Shown here one piece after another: positions 1-33,556 of a stretch of DNA of 35,463 nucleotides. Under the pieces are notes generated by a model. The model saw only the letters and a program-made list of their open reading frames with translations. It ran no database searches and was not told the DNA's origin. The stretch covers positions 71,828 to 107,290 of the forward strand of contig CABZTX010000002.1 in the NCBI GenBank assembly GCA_902528875.1, given 5' to 3'. A program made the position numbers and the translations under genes. How positions within the stretch are numbered: the stretch's first letter is position 1; the number at the start of each line of letters is the position of its first letter. This stretch comes from an uncultured SAR86 cluster bacterium (GTDB taxonomy: Bacteria > Pseudomonadota > Gammaproteobacteria > Magnimaribacterales > D2472).

Positions 1-405
1 CTTTCGAAAGAGCAATCATCTATCCTGGGATATAATTTTATTAAAAAATCTCTAGAAACTACTGATTTATCTGTAGCAATTGCTAAAAGAGATAAGATAT
101 TATCAGATCTTAATAATATATCCAAACAGCCTATTTTAGAGGCAAAATCTACAGATAATATAGATGACAATAGGGTAAATGAATCAAATATTTATACAAA
201 ATTTGATGATTTTAGTGAAAATACTGATAGTTATGAGAAAACTCAGCAAGAAATGGGTACAAAAGTTAAAAAGAGAGATAAATATAGAATCTTATCCATA
301 AAAATACCTAAATTGCCTCAAAAAGAAGAGATAGTTAGTAAAATTGATAGCATTGTACCCATAATTATTGCTTTTTTAACTTTATTTGTTGTTCTAATTG
401 CTTGA
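1..405 (+). CDS. C-terminal part of an unrecognised protein with a C-terminal membrane anchor (5' end outside window)
   Basis: Frame 1 is open from the first base to a TGA at 403-405, giving 134 residues with no start in view. The visible part is hydrophilic, rich in Asp, Asn, Lys and Ser. It looks like a linker in the middle and ends in one hydrophobic stretch (PIIIAFLTLFVVLIA) reaching the last residue. That is the arrangement of a tail-anchored or C-terminally anchored inner-membrane protein. I do not recognise the family. Its last 41 bases overlap, tail to tail, the end of the kinase gene on the other strand. Absence of internal stops over 134 codons in this AT-rich DNA and the coherent TM end support it being real, but the assignment stops there. 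Confidence 0.6.
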   Translation, partial: LSKEQSSILGYNFIKKSLETTDLSVAIAKRDKILSDLNNISKQPILEAKSTDNIDDNRVNESNIYTKFDDFSENTDSYEKTQQEMGTKVKKRDKYRILSIKIPKLPQKEEIVSKIDSIVPIIIAFLTLFVVLIA

Positions 406-1201
406 TTTTATTAAAGAGATTCTTGCTTTTTAAAGAATTTTGCTCTTTGCCATGAATGTTTTCCATTATTAGAGACCATATATAATCTATATATAGATTA
501 ATTTGTTTCCAAAGTAAGATCTTTTCTCTTATATCAATGTGATTTTTTATTCCGTAACTTTCTAAAAAAACATTTTGTTCATTTGGATTCATATCAAATG
601 AGAGCATAATTTTACTAATATCAAAGAATTTATTATTTAATGATGCATATTCATAATCAATAAAACATATATTTTTATTAAACAAAATATTTGTGGGATT
701 CAAATCATTGTGTGAAAAAACGTTCTCTTGATGATTTGTTTTTGACATTTTTATTAAAGCATTTAATTTTTCAAAGACCTTAGGGAGTTTGTTTATATTT
801 AATATTTTTTTATATGCTTCTATTTGTTCATTGAATGTATGAATATTTTTTTTATTTTTTAATTCATGTATTTCTTTTAATCGATTACCCAATTTTTTAA
901 AAAACATATTATCTTTTTTACATAATGATGTTTCATGGTATTCGTAAATTAAAATGCCTTTTGTTTTGTTTTTATATAGAACTTTGGGGTGTAGTTCTTT
1001 ATTTGATAACTCAGTAAGAGTTTCTTTAGTGAGATAACTATTAATCTTAAAATTGATGTTAAATTTTTTGAATACCTTGATTATTATTTTTTTTCTTTTA
1101 AGTCGTCCGGTAAATGTCTTTGATGTTTCTCCCTCCCTTAATAGAATTAAATCTTCAATAAAAATATTGATCTTTTTTAAATTCGTTAATATGTTATCCA
1201 T
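365..1201 (-). CDS. Choline/thiamine kinase-like phosphotransferase (probable thiamine kinase)
   Basis: A 278-residue protein of the aminoglycoside phosphotransferase / choline kinase fold. The catalytic loop reads HNDLNPTNI (Brenner motif, Asp base and Asn metal ligand) and the metal-binding Asp follows in FIDYEYA; both match the LicA/ThiK group. It is the last gene of the riboswitch-led operon, and its start overlaps the end of the PnuT gene by 8 bases, so translation is probably coupled. Family knowledge leaves choline, ethanolamine or thiamine as substrate. The TPP riboswitch and PnuT partner favour thiamine: phosphorylation to thiamine monophosphate would trap it in the cytoplasm. A separate enzyme would still be needed to make TPP, and none is in this window. 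The kinase fold is secure; the substrate is an inference from context. Confidence 0.8.
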   Translation of the reverse strand: MDNILTNLKKINIFIEDLILLREGETSKTFTGRLKRKKIIIKVFKKFNINFKINSYLTKETLTELSNKELHPKVLYKNKTKGILIYEYHETSLCKKDNMFFKKLGNRLKEIHELKNKKNIHTFNEQIEAYKKILNINKLPKVFEKLNALIKMSKTNHQENVFSHNDLNPTNILFNKNICFIDYEYASLNNKFFDISKIMLSFDMNPNEQNVFLESYGIKNHIDIREKILLWKQINLYIDYIWSLIMENIHGKEQNSLKSKNLFNKIKQLEQQIKLKKQ

Positions 1202-1766
1202 CGTTTTGATTAAGTGTTCTTTTCCATGATCTGTAACCGAAAACTATTATTACTAAATAGATTACAAATAAAAAAGCAGTTAAATATAATCCTCTTGATG
1301 TATATAAGTAAATTGAGATTGAATCTATAACAAACCAGTATATCCAATTTTCTAATATTTTTTTTGCAACCATATATGTCGTTACTATTGCACCCCAAGT
1401 AGTGAAAGCATCAATAAATGGTAGAGCAGCTTGGGTATATTCCTCTAAAATAATCCCAGATAAAATTGCTAAAATTGTTACAGAAATAACTGCATAAACA
1501 TGATTTAAATTATTCCAACTTTTAATTCTTAAATCACGATTACTATTGATAATATTTTTCCAATGTAACCATCCATAAACCGCCATTAAAACATAAAAAA
1601 TTTGTAATAAGGATTCCATATAAAGACCTGCCTGGAACATAATATAAATATAAAGGCAAGAACTAATTAATGCCGCATACCAGCATCTTACGTCTTCTTT
1701 TGCAGCTAAGATTAAATACAAAATAGCTGTGAGAACAGCTATGCTCTCGATAACTATGTTAACCAT
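1194..1766 (-). CDS. pnuT: PnuC-family vitamin permease, probable thiamine transporter PnuT
   Basis: A 190-residue, very hydrophobic protein with about seven membrane segments. PnuC-family signatures are visible: YGWLHW near residue 65 (compare YGWW.W) and ENWIYWFVID near residue 140. PnuC proteins are facilitators that work with a cytoplasmic kinase which traps the substrate. NiaP/PnuC-type members carry nicotinamide riboside, PnuX riboflavin and PnuT thiamine. Here a TPP riboswitch leads the operon, a TonB-dependent receptor lies 6 bases upstream and a small-molecule kinase overlaps downstream, so thiamine is the best substrate guess. Length is close to the family norm of about 200. The family is secure; substrate assignment rests on the riboswitch and neighbours. 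Confidence 0.85.
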   Translation of the reverse strand: MVNIVIESIAVLTAILYLILAAKEDVRCWYAALISSCLYIYIMFQAGLYMESLLQIFYVLMAVYGWLHWKNIINSNRDLRIKSWNNLNHVYAVISVTILAILSGIILEEYTQAALPFIDAFTTWGAIVTTYMVAKKILENWIYWFVIDSISIYLYTSRGLYLTAFLFVIYLVIIVFGYRSWKRTLNQNDG

Positions 1767-1772
1767 ATGATT

Positions 1773-3869
1773 TTAGAAATCATATCTTACAGAAAATCCC
1801 AGATTTCTTGGATCGCCTTGTCTTCTATATAATGTATCAACAAAATTTGGGGCCTCATTTCCAAAGAAAAAACCTCTTGTTGAGTAATACTCATCAAATA
1901 AATTTCTTACCCATAAGTTTGCTGAAAAGTCTGCTTTGGCATAGCCAAAAGTAAGATTAACAAGCTGATAACTTTTTGATTTATTATTGTGGGAATCTGA
2001 ATAATAAAAGCTACTTTTTCCATTAATATCTATTTTTAAATATAGGTTATTTTTTAAATCTAGATTTGCACCGATAGAATATGTTTGTTGAGGTGCATGA
2101 GCTTGAGCTCTGTTTTCTAAATCAGCTCTAGACTCCCAATTGATAATTTTTGTTTTTAGAATACCTAGATTTGCAAAAATATATAAGTTATCAGTAGCTG
2201 AATAATTTGAACTTATTTCTAATCCATAGTTTTCACCTTCAGCGGCATTTTGAGTTAAGAATGAGAAAGTATTAGGATCAGACGGATCAACCTGTTTAGA
2301 GATTAAAACTTGTTGATCATTTCTTTTAGAATAAAAAATTGTAGAAGAATAATTAAAATTTTCATCAGCTTTTGAACTAAAACCAATTTCATAGTTTGTT
2401 AAAAATTCCGGATCATATATCAAGGATTCTTTTACAGAGCTATCAGTAGCATCAAGACCAAGATTGAAACCACCTTGTTTATATCCTCTTGCAATTGAAA
2501 AATAAGTATTAGATCCGTCTTCATTATTTTTGATCAATGATATCTTTCCTCCATTCATATTATTTGATGGATCAAAAAATTCATTATTAGAATCTTTATA
2601 TTTAGAATCCCATTTTTCCCATCTTAATCCAAAAGCGACTTTGTAATTTTCAGTTAAAAAATAATCAATATTTCCAAATATAGATAAGTTATTCGCTTCA
2701 TAGTCTCGTGAAACTAACGATTCACTTGCATAAGGACTGTAAGGATCATCAGGGTCACCGTATATACCATCATCTTTTGTAACATTTTTTTCTTCAAGAT
2801 CACTAAATTCAAAGCCAAACACCCATTCAAATGGGTTTTTCTCTGAAAATTCAGGATTATTTGATAAAAAACGTATTTCTTGACTAAAAGTATCTCTTTT
2901 TCTTAATGTTTCTGAAAAATAATCATAAATATAAGGAAAATGTGACTCAGAATTTCCCCAGTCAGCATCATAACTAAAAACAACATCTGTTTTTGTAGTA
3001 TTTGTAAAACTTTGAAGATCAAAATTACTATAGTTTTTTGTTATTTTTATTCCAAATGAATCTGTGACTTGTGAATCCATTCCTGGACGATCTGATAATG
3101 TGTTTAAGCTTCCATCTATAGTCCAAATATCGGCTGGATCATCCATATCAATTTTTGAAACTACTAAATTTATATTTGTACTTTTATCAATTTCCCAATT
3201 TAATTTATATCGTAGAGTTAACTCATCTTTTTTTGAAGTATCAGATTTGTTTAAATAAACATTTTTTCTAAAGCCATCTGCATAATCGGTCCTAACTACT
3301 AAACGATATTTCATATTTTTATTCTGCATTGGCCCACCAAATGCTACACCAATATTTTGTGTTCCATAATCTCCAATGGTCACTTCAGAGGTCCCTTCAA
3401 ATTCGTCAGTTGGATCTTTAGTTTTAATATAAATTAATCCTGCTAGAGCATTAGCACCTGATCTTGATCCTTGCGGTCCTCTATAAACTTCAACCTGATC
3501 AACATCAAACAGGGTTGCAATTCCACCTTGTCCAGAGTAATCGATATCATCTATTAGAAATCCAACGGAAGAATTCGGAGTACCTTGATAACCTGACCTT
3601 TCACCAATGCCTCGAATTTGAAAATATCTTGCCCGAGAGTCTGAAGCAGCATAATTCAAATTTGGTACTAGATAAGAAAGTTGTTGAAAATGTTTGATCG
3701 CTTGAGATTTAATTTCTTCAGATTGGATTACAGCAATACTAGAGTCTTCCTCGCTGATTAATTTTTCTCTAAACTCTCCCTTCACAATTATTTCTTCAAT
3801 CTCTTGTGAAAAGATAAAAAAAGAAAAGAATAAGGGTACTAAAAATAAAATATTTATTCTGATATACAT
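1773..3869 (-). CDS. TonB-dependent outer-membrane receptor, probably for thiamine or a precursor
   Basis: About 698 residues. A signal peptide (MYIRINILFLVPLFFSFFIFS) is followed by a TonB box-like EIEEIIVKG. The plug domain shows QIRGIGERSG, GFLIDDIDY and VEVYRGPQGS, and a long beta-barrel ends in the aromatic terminus GFSVRYDF. These are outer-membrane receptors that import scarce ligands using TonB energy. I chose the ATG at 3867-3869 because GGAGG sits eight bases before it and the signal peptide then starts at the N-terminus. A longer TTG-started reading frame runs to 3908 but would lie inside the riboswitch and add 13 non-signal residues. First gene of the TPP-riboswitch operon, so the ligand is likely thiamine or a thiamine precursor. 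The class is certain; the ligand is inferred. Confidence 0.93.
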   Translation of the reverse strand: MYIRINILFLVPLFFSFFIFSQEIEEIIVKGEFREKLISEEDSSIAVIQSEEIKSQAIKHFQQLSYLVPNLNYAASDSRARYFQIRGIGERSGYQGTPNSSVGFLIDDIDYSGQGGIATLFDVDQVEVYRGPQGSRSGANALAGLIYIKTKDPTDEFEGTSEVTIGDYGTQNIGVAFGGPMQNKNMKYRLVVRTDYADGFRKNVYLNKSDTSKKDELTLRYKLNWEIDKSTNINLVVSKIDMDDPADIWTIDGSLNTLSDRPGMDSQVTDSFGIKITKNYSNFDLQSFTNTTKTDVVFSYDADWGNSESHFPYIYDYFSETLRKRDTFSQEIRFLSNNPEFSEKNPFEWVFGFEFSDLEEKNVTKDDGIYGDPDDPYSPYASESLVSRDYEANNLSIFGNIDYFLTENYKVAFGLRWEKWDSKYKDSNNEFFDPSNNMNGGKISLIKNNEDGSNTYFSIARGYKQGGFNLGLDATDSSVKESLIYDPEFLTNYEIGFSSKADENFNYSSTIFYSKRNDQQVLISKQVDPSDPNTFSFLTQNAAEGENYGLEISSNYSATDNLYIFANLGILKTKIINWESRADLENRAQAHAPQQTYSIGANLDLKNNLYLKIDINGKSSFYYSDSHNNKSKSYQLVNLTFGYAKADFSANLWVRNLFDEYYSTRGFFFGNEAPNFVDTLYRRQGDPRNLGFSVRYDF

Positions 3870-3952
3870 ATGCAATTCCTCCGCAACTATTGTGTTGATC
3901 AGGTTCAAAGAGTTTCAAAAAGATCTCAGGCTAAACTGCCACCCCTTTGCAT
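3870..3952 (-). promoter_or_regulatory. TPP riboswitch (THI element)
   Basis: Read on the minus strand, this leader contains the conserved THI-box blocks in order: GGGGTG, CTGAGAT, GAACCTGATC and GCGGAGG. The ends pair perfectly as P1: ATGCAA (minus strand of 3947-3952) with TTGCAT (minus strand of 3870-3875). The 3' arm of P1 directly abuts the ATG of the TonB-dependent receptor, and the conserved GCGGAGG block supplies its Shine-Dalgarno sequence at 3878-3882. Ligand binding should therefore block ribosome access. No separate terminator hairpin is visible, so control of translation initiation is the likely mode. It is the strongest evidence that the three-gene operon serves thiamine uptake. 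Confidence 0.95.
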
Positions 3953-3958
3953 TAATTA

Positions 3959-3964
3959 CTTATA
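3959..3964 (-). promoter_or_regulatory. Putative -10 element of the thiamine operon
   Basis: On the minus strand TATAAG lies six bases before the first base of the riboswitch P1 helix, so transcription would start at or next to the aptamer. The -35 side is only a weak AT-rich match. The rest of the 93-base spacer up to the prolyl oligopeptidase stop (3953-4045) is very AT-rich, and I see no gene or clear terminator in it. Confidence 0.4.
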
Positions 3965-4045
3965 TTAATCAATATTTCTATAATTTAAAAGTATTGATTT
4001 TAAATATAATTTAAGAGGTATAAAATTATTATTTATAACCTTATA

Positions 4046-6145
4046 TCAGCTATTTATAACATTTAATGCATAACCATAAATTTCAGAAATTTGATTAATT
4101 CTTTTATCTTTTGGTGTACCTGCACCATGACCTGCTCTATCTTCTACTCTTATCAAAATAGGATTATTGCATGACTGATTCTCTTGAAGCTTAGCAGCAA
4201 ATTTGAAAGAGTGTGAGGGAACTACTCTATCATCCCGACTTGCTGTTGTAATCAAAGTTGTAGGATAACAAACATCAGATTTAATATTATGAAGCGGTGA
4301 ATATGATAGAAGATTCTCAAACTCATCTTTTTTATCTGAAGATCCATAGTCACTTTCCCAGGCCCAACCAATTGTAAATTTATTAAACCTAAGCATGTCT
4401 AAAACACCAACTTGTGGAATAGCAACTTTATATAAGTCTGGATTTTGTAACATGGTTGCTGCTACTAAAAGTCCACCATTAGATCTTCCATCGATAGCAG
4501 TCGATTTTGGGGACCCAATTTTTTTAGCATGCAAAAATTTTGCAGCGTATGCAAAATCATCAAAAACATTTTGTTTGTTCAAAAGCATGCCTGCTTCATG
4601 CCAAGCATCTCCATATTCCGCACCGCCTCTTAAATTTGCTACAGCAAAAACTCCATTTTGATTTTTCCATGCAGTTTGACTTTTACTAAAACTTGGTAGT
4701 ATTGAAATATTGAATCCGCCGTATCCATAAATTAGTAAAGGCGTATTTTCATCGATCACTAAATCTTTTTTATGACTTATATGAATTGGGATTTGTGTCC
4801 CATCTTTTGACTCATAAAATTCTAACTTTGATATATATTCCTCTGAGTTATACCCTTCTAAATCCTCTTGCCAAAAAAGTTCATACGAAAGATCTGTTAA
4901 ATTTATTTCATAAATTTCTCTTGGAGTTACGTAATTTGTAATTGAAAAGTAGGAACTTGTATCTTCAAGACCTCCACTAAAACCACTTATGGTTCCTTCT
5001 TTCGGTAGTGACAATTTTGAAATAAGCTGGCCATCTAAATCAAAGACACTTATTTTTGAGAAAGTATCCTCTAAATAGTTAATCACAAAAGAATTGTTTA
5101 CAATATTAACGGATCTGATGGCATTTTTAGACTCAGGAATTACTTCATTCCATATAAAAGAGTTATTTTTGACCTCTAAATTAACAATTTTTCCATTTGG
5201 AGCACTTTCAGTCGTATAAAACCACAAAATATTATCTTTACTATCAATAAAGCTATATGAAGCAATTAATTCATCAATAATAGGAATAAAATCACTATCT
5301 TTGCTAACTTTTAAATAAATTCTGTTTCTTTCATCAGTTCCCTCAGAAATAGATAATATTTTCATATCACTATCTTTAACAACTGTTATTCCAAACCCCC
5401 ATCTAGGATTATCAGGATTTTCGTATATTAATTGATCATCAGATTGATTCGTGCCAATTTTATGAAACATTATTTTTGGAGATTCATTTAACTCTTTTAA
5501 TAACTCTCCGTCAGGTTCTTCATAGCGTCTGTAGTAAAATCCACTATCATCATTTTCCCAAATTGCCCCAGAAAATTTTGCCCACTTTAAGTTATCCTCA
5601 AGAACCTCTCCTGTTTCGATATTCATTACTTTCCATGATCTCCAATCAGACCCACCATCTGAAATTGAAAATGCAATATGCGTTGCATTATTATTTATAC
5701 TAGTTCCACCAAGAGATACTGTCCCATCTTCTGAGAAAGTGTTTGGATCAATTAAAACTCTCTCTTTACAATCTTCACAATCTTTGATCATTAACTTGCT
5801 TTGTTGGAACGTACCATCATTAAAGTAATAAAATGTTTTTTCTTTTACCTTATATGGAATAGATATCGACTCGCTTTCCCATATATCATTCAAATAACTT
5901 TCAAGACCTTTCTTATAATTATTATTTTGAATAAAAACTTTTGTAAAGTTATTTTGCCGATCTGCCCAATCTACAGATTCTTCACTTGTAAAATCCTCAA
6001 GCCATCTATATGAATCAATTATTTCATAACCATGGATCGTTTCACTAAATTCTATTTTTTTTGTTTCTGGATATGAAATCTCAGATTCTTGAGACGAGCA
6101 GGAAACTAAAATGAAAAACAACAAAGAAGAGTATTTTTTATACAT
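4046..6145 (-). CDS. Prolyl oligopeptidase family serine peptidase (S9A), lipoprotein
   Basis: A 699-residue two-domain peptidase: an N-terminal seven-bladed propeller (about residues 70-430) and a C-terminal alpha/beta hydrolase domain. The catalytic triad is visible: Ser555 in GRSNGG, Asp638/639 in SRDDRVVP and His673 in GHGAG. Spacing closely matches the mammalian enzyme. The N-terminus is a lipoprotein signal with a lipobox ending at Cys16 (FFILVSC), so the enzyme is exported and membrane-anchored, unlike the cytosolic eukaryotic form. S9A enzymes cleave short peptides after proline. A periplasmic or outer-membrane anchored version would trim imported peptides for uptake. It stands alone, 93 bases upstream of the riboswitch leader on the same strand. 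High confidence in family; exact substrate unknown. Confidence 0.93.
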   Translation of the reverse strand: MYKKYSSLLFFILVSCSSQESEISYPETKKIEFSETIHGYEIIDSYRWLEDFTSEESVDWADRQNNFTKVFIQNNNYKKGLESYLNDIWESESISIPYKVKEKTFYYFNDGTFQQSKLMIKDCEDCKERVLIDPNTFSEDGTVSLGGTSINNNATHIAFSISDGGSDWRSWKVMNIETGEVLEDNLKWAKFSGAIWENDDSGFYYRRYEEPDGELLKELNESPKIMFHKIGTNQSDDQLIYENPDNPRWGFGITVVKDSDMKILSISEGTDERNRIYLKVSKDSDFIPIIDELIASYSFIDSKDNILWFYTTESAPNGKIVNLEVKNNSFIWNEVIPESKNAIRSVNIVNNSFVINYLEDTFSKISVFDLDGQLISKLSLPKEGTISGFSGGLEDTSSYFSITNYVTPREIYEINLTDLSYELFWQEDLEGYNSEEYISKLEFYESKDGTQIPIHISHKKDLVIDENTPLLIYGYGGFNISILPSFSKSQTAWKNQNGVFAVANLRGGAEYGDAWHEAGMLLNKQNVFDDFAYAAKFLHAKKIGSPKSTAIDGRSNGGLLVAATMLQNPDLYKVAIPQVGVLDMLRFNKFTIGWAWESDYGSSDKKDEFENLLSYSPLHNIKSDVCYPTTLITTASRDDRVVPSHSFKFAAKLQENQSCNNPILIRVEDRAGHGAGTPKDKRINQISEIYGYALNVINS

Positions 6146-32560: not shown

Positions 32561-33556
32561 TTATTTGTATCCCGCCTCTTGTGCTAAAAAAACTGCTTCC
32601 TTTTGTAGAGATCCAAGTTTACTAACATTTATATTATCCTCAACAAAAGCGCCCCAACTTTTTATAGCTTCATTAATTTCAGAACCTTCAACCACTGGGT
32701 ATTCTTTTACAGCAGAAGCATAAAATTCCTGTGCTTTTTTGGACGAAAAGTATTCAAGTAACTTTATAGCATTCTCCTTATTGTTGGAAGTATTTACAAT
32801 TCCTGCTCCAGAAATGTTTACATGCACCCCTCTGTTTTTTTGGTTAGCCCAAAAAAGTCTCAGATTATCATATTGAGGATCATCCAATAATCTTGCTAAA
32901 TAATATGTATTTACAATGGTAACCCCACATTGACCGCTCGATACCGCTTTAAGTGCGCTAGTATCATTTGAAAAGACCTCTGTTGCTAAATTTGAAACCC
33001 AGCCTGATACTACAGATTTGGTTTTTTCAAAACCGTATGAATCAATCATGCTAGCTATGAGTGATCTGTTATAAACTTTTTTTGAAGTTCTTAGGCATAA
33101 TTTACCTTTCCATTTGGGGTCTGATAAATCCTCATAGGTAGAAAAGTCTGATGCAGAATATTGGTCATCTGAGAAAACTATAGTTCTAGCTCTTTTTGAA
33201 AAACCGAACCACTGATTATTAGCATCTCTCAAATAATCAGGAATATTTGTATTTAAAATATTTGAATCAACTTCGCTAAAAATATTTCTTTCAGCTGCTT
33301 GCCACAGAACTCCAGCATCAACTGTCATAAATATATCTGCCTTTGAATCTTTTCCCTCTACAGATATTCTCTCCATTAAAACCTGAGCATTTCCGGACAA
33401 CAAATTCACCTTTATGCCCGTATCTTGATAGAATTCATTAAGTATTGGTTCAAGAAGTTGTGGTTGTCTTGAAGTAAATATAGTAAGTTCATCTTCTAAT
33501 TTATTAGCACAAGAAATTAAAATAAATAAAGATAATATTATCGAAAGTTTTTTCAT
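32561..33556 (-). CDS. Iron(III) ABC-transporter substrate-binding lipoprotein (AfuA/FutA-like)
   Basis: A 331-residue binding protein with a lipoprotein signal ending at Cys16 (LFILISC). The N-terminal domain starts ELTIFTSRQPQLLEPIL and continues to DSKADIFMTVDAGVLWQAAE, typical of the ferric-iron branch; the tyrosine pair VNTYYLARL near residue 220 supplies likely iron ligands, as in FbpA/FutA. It would capture Fe(III) in the periplasm. No permease or ATPase gene is adjacent: its neighbours are rpmB (convergent) and ubiH (42 bases upstream, same strand). The ligand is inferred from the family and the Tyr pair. Confidence 0.88.
   Translation of the reverse strand: MKKLSIILSLFILISCANKLEDELTIFTSRQPQLLEPILNEFYQDTGIKVNLLSGNAQVLMERISVEGKDSKADIFMTVDAGVLWQAAERNIFSEVDSNILNTNIPDYLRDANNQWFGFSKRARTIVFSDDQYSASDFSTYEDLSDPKWKGKLCLRTSKKVYNRSLIASMIDSYGFEKTKSVVSGWVSNLATEVFSNDTSALKAVSSGQCGVTIVNTYYLARLLDDPQYDNLRLFWANQKNRGVHVNISGAGIVNTSNNKENAIKLLEYFSSKKAQEFYASAVKEYPVVEGSEINEAIKSWGAFVEDNINVSKLGSLQKEAVFLAQEAGYK

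Follow-up and report, generated by a model that had tools for sequence, protein, structure and literature searches.

A putative vitamin B1 acquisition operon under predicted TPP riboswitch control in a SAR86 bacterium

How might a marine bacterium that appears to have lost the synthesis of vitamin B1 still obtain it? The question is raised by a locus in a 35,463-nucleotide stretch of DNA from a SAR86 bacterium (the window, meaning the whole stretch analysed), where a predicted thiamine pyrophosphate (TPP) riboswitch precedes genes for a TonB-dependent receptor, a PnuC-family permease and an APH-fold kinase. SAR86 is an abundant marine group described as B1-auxotrophic in parts of PMC10881298, and the locus suggests how the group could cover that need, by a route specific enough to be put to the test. 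We read the locus as a vitamin B1 acquisition operon under TPP-responsive translational control, and put the probability of this reading at roughly 87%. The riboswitch and all three genes lie on the minus strand, and the source assembly, 74.1% complete, comprises 47 contigs with 1,033,007 bases in total. The features are:

3859..3956, minus strand: TPP riboswitch aptamer (THI element), matching RF00059, model positions 1-105
3878..3882, minus strand: GGAGG, Shine-Dalgarno-like, on the 3' side of aptamer helix P4 (sequence read against the cmscan structure line)
1773..3869, minus strand: TonB-dependent receptor, 698 amino acids, ATG at 3869, with Plug and beta-barrel domains; predicted outer-membrane thiamine receptor (omr1/OMthi role)
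1194..1766, minus strand: PnuC-family permease, 190 amino acids, PF04973; predicted PnuT, an inner-membrane thiamine facilitator
365..1201, minus strand: APH-fold kinase, 278 amino acids, ThiK/choline-kinase-like, PF01633/PF01636; predicted thiamine kinase (thiamine to thiamine monophosphate, TMP)

Read 5' to 3', the order is riboswitch, receptor, permease and kinase. Six bases (1767-1772) separate receptor and permease, and the permease and kinase frames share eight (1194-1201, a spacing of -8); the three frames of the original prediction are present with its gaps of +6 and -8, and their domains all scored over cut-off. That prediction had also placed a TPP riboswitch at 3870-3952, ahead of the receptor, and proposed a covariance search with RF00059. 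The search (cmscan) bore this out with a significant match over 3956-3859, which contains the predicted interval: 56.7 bits where the gathering score is 54.3 (E 1.1e-8), full model, and the sole TPP-model match in the source genome (1.03 Mb as assembled). The mechanically called receptor open reading frame begins at a TTG at 3908, within the aptamer; the receptor probably starts at the ATG at 3869, one base past the 3' strand of helix P1 (3951-3947 paired with 3875-3871 in the cmscan structure line). Because this ATG lies in the matched stretch, next to P1, aptamer and receptor start region overlap. The closest relatives of the permease among the best 80 of 131 loci are from a Gammaproteobacteria bacterium (L031, 96%) and a SAR86 cluster bacterium (L032, 94%), and the SAR86 cluster name recurs in many of the 80 records; these named relatives place the operon in SAR86.

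The element is a predicted TPP aptamer on the basis of the covariance-model match, and it precedes the receptor in relatives as well; since the score exceeds the cut-off and the element is kept in this position, the match is more than chance. We aligned 28 of the 30 riboswitch loci, with the window standing for L001 and with L011 (identical to L010 there) and L020 (unread bases) omitted. Across this alignment 93.7% of 476 pair cells were formed, compared to 31-50% for slid versions, and 19 cells had changed on both sides with pairing kept (2 in P1, 17 in the inner helix); 0 of 500 shuffles reached either value. Two further measures did not rise above shuffles: there were 3 pairs with a double change, a number that 65 of 500 shuffles attained as well, and 8 pair types, attained by 452 of 500. 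As these two measures were not exceeded and the sequences are related, support from covariation is modest. The GGAGG was invariant in all 28 sequences. The Rfam consensus reads GuAGG, whereas in the SAR86 aptamers the position of the u is an unpaired G-G in P4 in 28 of 28, the other three P4 pairs being invariant. It may be that one weak aptamer pair was given up for a perfect Shine-Dalgarno sequence.

How general is the placing of this motif? A motif script was run over 110 loci, comprising the 30 riboswitch loci and permease loci L031-L110, which are the best 80 of 131 confirmed. Conserved aptamer blocks were found in 105, with 59 distinct 3' halves among them. In 91 of the 110 (overlapping) loci, GGAGG was followed 6 or 8 bases behind by an AUG opening a long frame (29 of 30 riboswitch loci and 62 of 80 permease loci by the strict count), and in these 91 the AUG fell on the last P1 base or one base after it. 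Among the 105 there were 14 exceptions. Five read GTAGG, with the nearest long frame starting from an ATG 66-104 bases on (L093, L096, L099, L103, L107); the corresponding distance was 88-89 bases in L078 and L092. GAAGG stands in L109, where a TTG lies at 14 and an ATG at 68, and in L097, where the AUG is at 6. The nearby starts are TTG only in L054 and L082, the latter also having ATGs at 69 and 75. Finally, the ATG lies one base past GGAGG in L015 and L064, and the AUG of L080 opens no long frame.

This arrangement suggests a direct translational OFF switch, of a known type, in most SAR86 loci. At low TPP, the leader RNA would be open, leaving the GGAGG in P4 accessible, and translation of the receptor gene, and thereby of the operon, would proceed. 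At high TPP, P4 and P1 would close and hide the ribosome site, with no separate expression platform. A ribosome site hidden in the aptamer core is a published TPP riboswitch mechanism, as described in parts of PMC2258182. By comparison with riboswitches of that type, the host here is gammaproteobacterial.

TPP riboswitches often act by terminating transcription or with the help of a longer expression platform. Such control, common as it is, could operate here in place of direct hiding of the ribosome site, but we consider this very unlikely given that the matched aptamer extends into the first codons, that no terminator-like site was found in 3700-4300 (0.2 expected), and that GGAGG sits in P4 with the AUG overlapping P1 or one base after it in most loci. 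A promoter scan returned 3 sites against 2.8 expected.

The place of uptake relative to synthesis was assessed in 60 genomes (G000-G059, the source genome G000 included), which overlap with L031-L110; L032 and G005, for example, share kinase coordinates. A riboswitch was counted at E up to 0.001. For ThiE and ThiD we used thresholds of our own, at least 100 and at least 130 bits respectively, as the curated scores of 145.1 and 204.95 were each reached in only 1 of 60 genomes. The riboswitch was present in 40 genomes (37 over cut-off, with G032, G048 and G050 just below) and the permease in 39, always together with the riboswitch; none of the 20 riboswitch-less genomes had the permease. The exception, G038, has the riboswitch and a partial kinase match with no permease match, and its riboswitch locus (L017) is cut short. 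Genomes with ThiC (10 of 60), ThiE (11) or ThiD (8) never carried the riboswitch or the permease. For riboswitch versus full-length ThiE, Fisher's p was 4.9e-7, a value that ignores relatedness and is descriptive only. ThiC had no match in the source genome, itself 74% complete, or in any riboswitch-bearing relative, and weak partial ThiD matches (at most 40.2 bits) occurred in many riboswitch genomes. A full thiamine synthesis set, which the original prediction had named among the results that would speak against it, was not found: where the riboswitch occurs there is no ThiC, and ThiE and ThiD are at most weak and partial. Synthesis genes are absent where the locus occurs, and uptake substitutes for synthesis. 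Within the source genus the riboswitch was found in 27 of 34 genomes, and the remainder are probably explained by assembly gaps. Riboswitch and PnuT versus ThiC/ThiE thus provide a genomic marker that splits consumers from makers within one order.

What do the three proteins handle? The receptor has Plug (49.1 bits, cut-off 23.9) and TonB_dep_Rec_b-barrel (75.7 bits, cut-off 27) domains, and a homologue is present in 79 of the 80 permease loci. The permease matches PF04973 over cut-off with 169.8 bits, and TPP-riboswitch control, by which a PnuT can be recognised, was found both at the window locus and as co-occurrence across genomes. From this context, the ligand of receptor and permease is predicted to be thiamine. 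The kinase is over cut-off for PF01633 (Choline_kinase, 45.7 bits) and PF01636 (APH, 31.2 bits). H164, D166, N171 and D182 are invariant in 21 aligned kinase relatives and form the H.D....N and D pattern, which is conserved, and has a role, in APH and choline kinases. It resembles ThiK (YcfN) in being an APH-fold kinase whose 21 aligned relatives all match TIGR02721 at E 1e-5 or better; all 21 match GntI at this level too. It is the operon, rather than the sequence family, that points to thiamine as the kinase's substrate.

In the favoured reading, the TonB receptor would carry scarce thiamine over the outer membrane and PnuT would let it equilibrate across the inner membrane. The ThiK-like kinase would then convert thiamine to TMP, retaining it in the cell, and ThiL, encoded elsewhere, would convert TMP to TPP. 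Transport by the PnuT of Shewanella woodyi depends on phosphorylation. ThiL was over cut-off in 56 of 60 genomes, with weaker matches in G000, G022, G028 and G044, while none of the 60 had thiamine pyrophosphokinase (TPK) over cut-off and G059 alone gave a weak partial match to it; kinase to TMP followed by ThiL to TPP is therefore the likely route. Scavenging across both membranes by a streamlined bacterium, as first proposed, gains support from these data, with the specificities of transport and kinase predicted and none of the contrary results it listed having been found. The accompanying idea that three genes make up the whole route needs amending: the uptake genes are present, but ThiL is still required. 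Its expectation of no ABC transporter agrees with a ThiB-type binding protein (TIGR01254) over cut-off in 0 of 60 genomes.

Several observations weigh against this reading. The leader does not fold better than shuffled sequences (z 0.32; 122 of 200 shuffles fold equally well or better). According to parts of PMC5613172, transcripts of riboswitch-linked transport genes in Bacteroides are barely altered by thiamine, so control is unproven there too. The permease matches the TIGR01528 model for PnuC (nicotinamide riboside) with 93.4 bits (cut-off 42.45). The kinase differs from ThiK (YcfN) in scoring 46.7 bits on TIGR02721 (ycfN_thiK), far under the curated 299.45 and hence outside the family as curated, and it does slightly better on GntI, also far below cut-off. 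ThiL is not over cut-off in the source assembly. In 39 of 60 genomes there are ThiB-type matches that stay below cut-off (best in the source genome 39.5 versus 93.4 bits), which leaves some chance of another thiamine carrier. Weak ThiE matches (18-29 bits over at most 58 residues) occur in 9 of the 40 riboswitch genomes; we take them to be other proteins or, in G051, a gene remnant. Seven genomes (G006, G014, G017, G023, G025, G027 and G033; 63-84% complete) have no riboswitch, ThiC or full-length ThiE, probably as a result of assembly gaps. (In G033 a kinase fragment reaches the contig end.) Lastly, seven genomes of family f2 (G039, G042, G045, G048, G051, G054, G057) have riboswitch, permease and ThiL with no operon-type kinase. 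Because sister SAR86 genomes keep riboswitch, receptor and permease without it, trapping by the operon kinase is not general; the kinase trapping originally proposed is thereby qualified, and is predicted for the window operon.

Could the permease instead carry nicotinamide riboside, as PnuC does, and the kinase act on choline or a nucleoside, with the riboswitch there for another reason? The PnuC model match fits this, as do the closest solved structures, which are PnuC 4qtn for the permease (E 2.5e-7) and choline kinases, best 4r77, for the kinase profile. However, the permease is present in 39 of 40 riboswitch genomes and missing from all 20 others, ThiC being encoded in 10 of these. In L080, the end of a TPP riboswitch (4843-4941) lies about 60 bases before permease homology (5001-5528), and no receptor was detected in this 10.5-kb locus. 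The permease also reads W..W...D, a motif that marks PnuT, where 4qtn reads W..W...N. On balance a PnuC and choline-kinase pair is very unlikely.

Import of a precursor (hydroxymethylpyrimidine, HMP, or thiazole) to be joined to thiamine phosphate inside the cell is the least probable alternative and hardly credible: the receptor and permease ligands are predicted only, and parts of PMC10881298 describe a riboswitch-linked pyrimidine transporter, thiV, in Pelagibacterales, but full-length ThiE or ThiD occurs in 0 of 40 riboswitch genomes, so that a precursor would be unusable by the known route, and the SAR86-order genomes with ThiE but no ThiC (G041, G044, G059) lack riboswitch and permease. 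The same absence of ThiE and ThiD rules out precursor salvage as our main interpretation. Of the prediction's thiamine or precursor, intact thiamine is therefore retained in preference to HMP, since uptake replaces synthesis and ThiE and ThiD are lacking.

Under the favoured reading as a thiamine acquisition operon, what happens in the relatives without a kinase? A kinase open reading frame was found in 61 of the 80 permease loci. Five of the other 19 end at most 167 bases past the permease match, and 14 have at least 2 kb downstream (L053, L064, L067, L068, L070, L073, L075, L085, L088, L090, L094, L095, L097, L100). A large opposite-strand gene follows the permease in 12 of these 14; that of L068 is, by eye, a catalase-peroxidase. 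Searching the 14 genomes with the kinase profile gave nothing in 3 and only weak matches, at 27-71 bits, in the other 11, compared to 252-303 bits for three controls. Six of the 11 weak matches were scanned: four were better on APH(3') than on ThiK, one was AmgK-like, and that of L131 had ThiK as its best model, at 39.5 bits and again far under 299.45. Weak matches also occur in the ThiC-bearing G037 and G040, and we propose none of the weak matches as the missing enzyme, although each has some chance of being it. The best kinase match among the seven f2 genomes, which overlap with the 14, was 80.1 bits in G054, on another contig, and we counted an operon kinase only above 80.1 bits. PF04263 (TPK catalytic domain) was found in 0 of 24 genomes, including seven kinase-less members of the set of 60 and 10 of the 14 kinase-less genomes from the permease loci. 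G010 is also without a kinase, its permease match ending 74 bases from the contig end.

In the kinase-less relatives a step of the known pathway appears to be missing; they are worth following, as is the exchange of synthesis for uptake inside a single order. It is a tentative and somewhat doubtful extension that SAR86 lineages made this exchange more than once, and that the kinase-less, TPK-less sister group holds an unrecognised thiamine kinase or imports a phosphorylated form by another route.

Genus g6 appears to contain two B1 strategies: G041, G044 and G059 have full-length ThiE without ThiC, riboswitch or permease, and G038, G047, G050, G053 and G056 have the riboswitch. An apparent thiD-thiE remnant was seen in G051, which has riboswitch and permease, at about 1890-2145 of locus L147 (contig 50, 57500-61500). 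Here 46 residues match the start of G036 ThiD (67% identity, E 4e-18). This match overlaps a second, weak one, in a different frame, to 39 residues close to the end of G036 ThiE (36%, E 3e-5); the strand has no open reading frame of at least 60 residues at this point. On one flank, two neighbours are shared with the intact G036 thiD-thiE (53% over 336 and 46% over 137 residues); the other flank differs. The stretch is what loss of synthesis would leave, in one case.

How does the locus compare with known systems? In Bacteroidetes, parts of PMC5613172 place OMthi, PnuT and Tnr3 under TPP riboswitches, in one operon in most gut genomes. In Bacteroides thetaiotaomicron, the same source reports no effect when OMthi or PnuT alone was lost; growth at low thiamine suffered when both were missing, or when one of them was missing along with synthesis. 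Our operon is similar in having TPP riboswitch, TonB receptor, PnuT and a phosphorylating enzyme. It differs in that an APH-fold kinase stands in place of Tnr3, with ThiL completing the route and TPK nowhere over cut-off. Closer to home, PMC10881298 reports, in parts, two SAR86 clusters in which omr1 has a thiamine diphosphate (TDP) riboswitch near by, and describes members of SAR86 as auxotrophs; group, TonB receptor near a TPP riboswitch and auxotrophy are the same as here. In contrast to our locus, its main text, as distinct from figures and supplements, has no word beginning 'pnut' or 'thik'. PMC12442306 describes, in parts, omr1 as transcribed in Baltic Sea bacteria and its specificity as unclear. 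PnuT of Shewanella woodyi, a PnuC-family permease, is named as a thiamine transporter in parts of PMC7749635, where the title of a cited reference speaks of facilitated diffusion; our permease is likened to that protein by family, not by sequence. Literature searches, with most subscription papers outside their scope, returned only freshwater Actinobacteria work for SAR86 with PnuT, and nothing for thiamine kinase with riboswitch, TonB and marine. A SAR86 TonB receptor with a TPP riboswitch is already published, and the remainder is a modest and largely expected extension; we do not put forward the kinase or PnuT as first reports in SAR86.

Two minor observations concern other parts of the data. 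The window protein at 32561-33556 (minus strand) is an ABC-type substrate-binding protein weakly like phosphonate- and thiamine-binding models, all below cut-off; it was rejected as part of a thiamine ABC transporter because its ThiB score, the 39.5 bits given above, falls short of the cut-off and is exceeded by its scores on PhnS-type models, themselves below cut-off. In L041 and L042, about 250 bases lie between the receptor and permease matches, compared to about 10 in close relatives.

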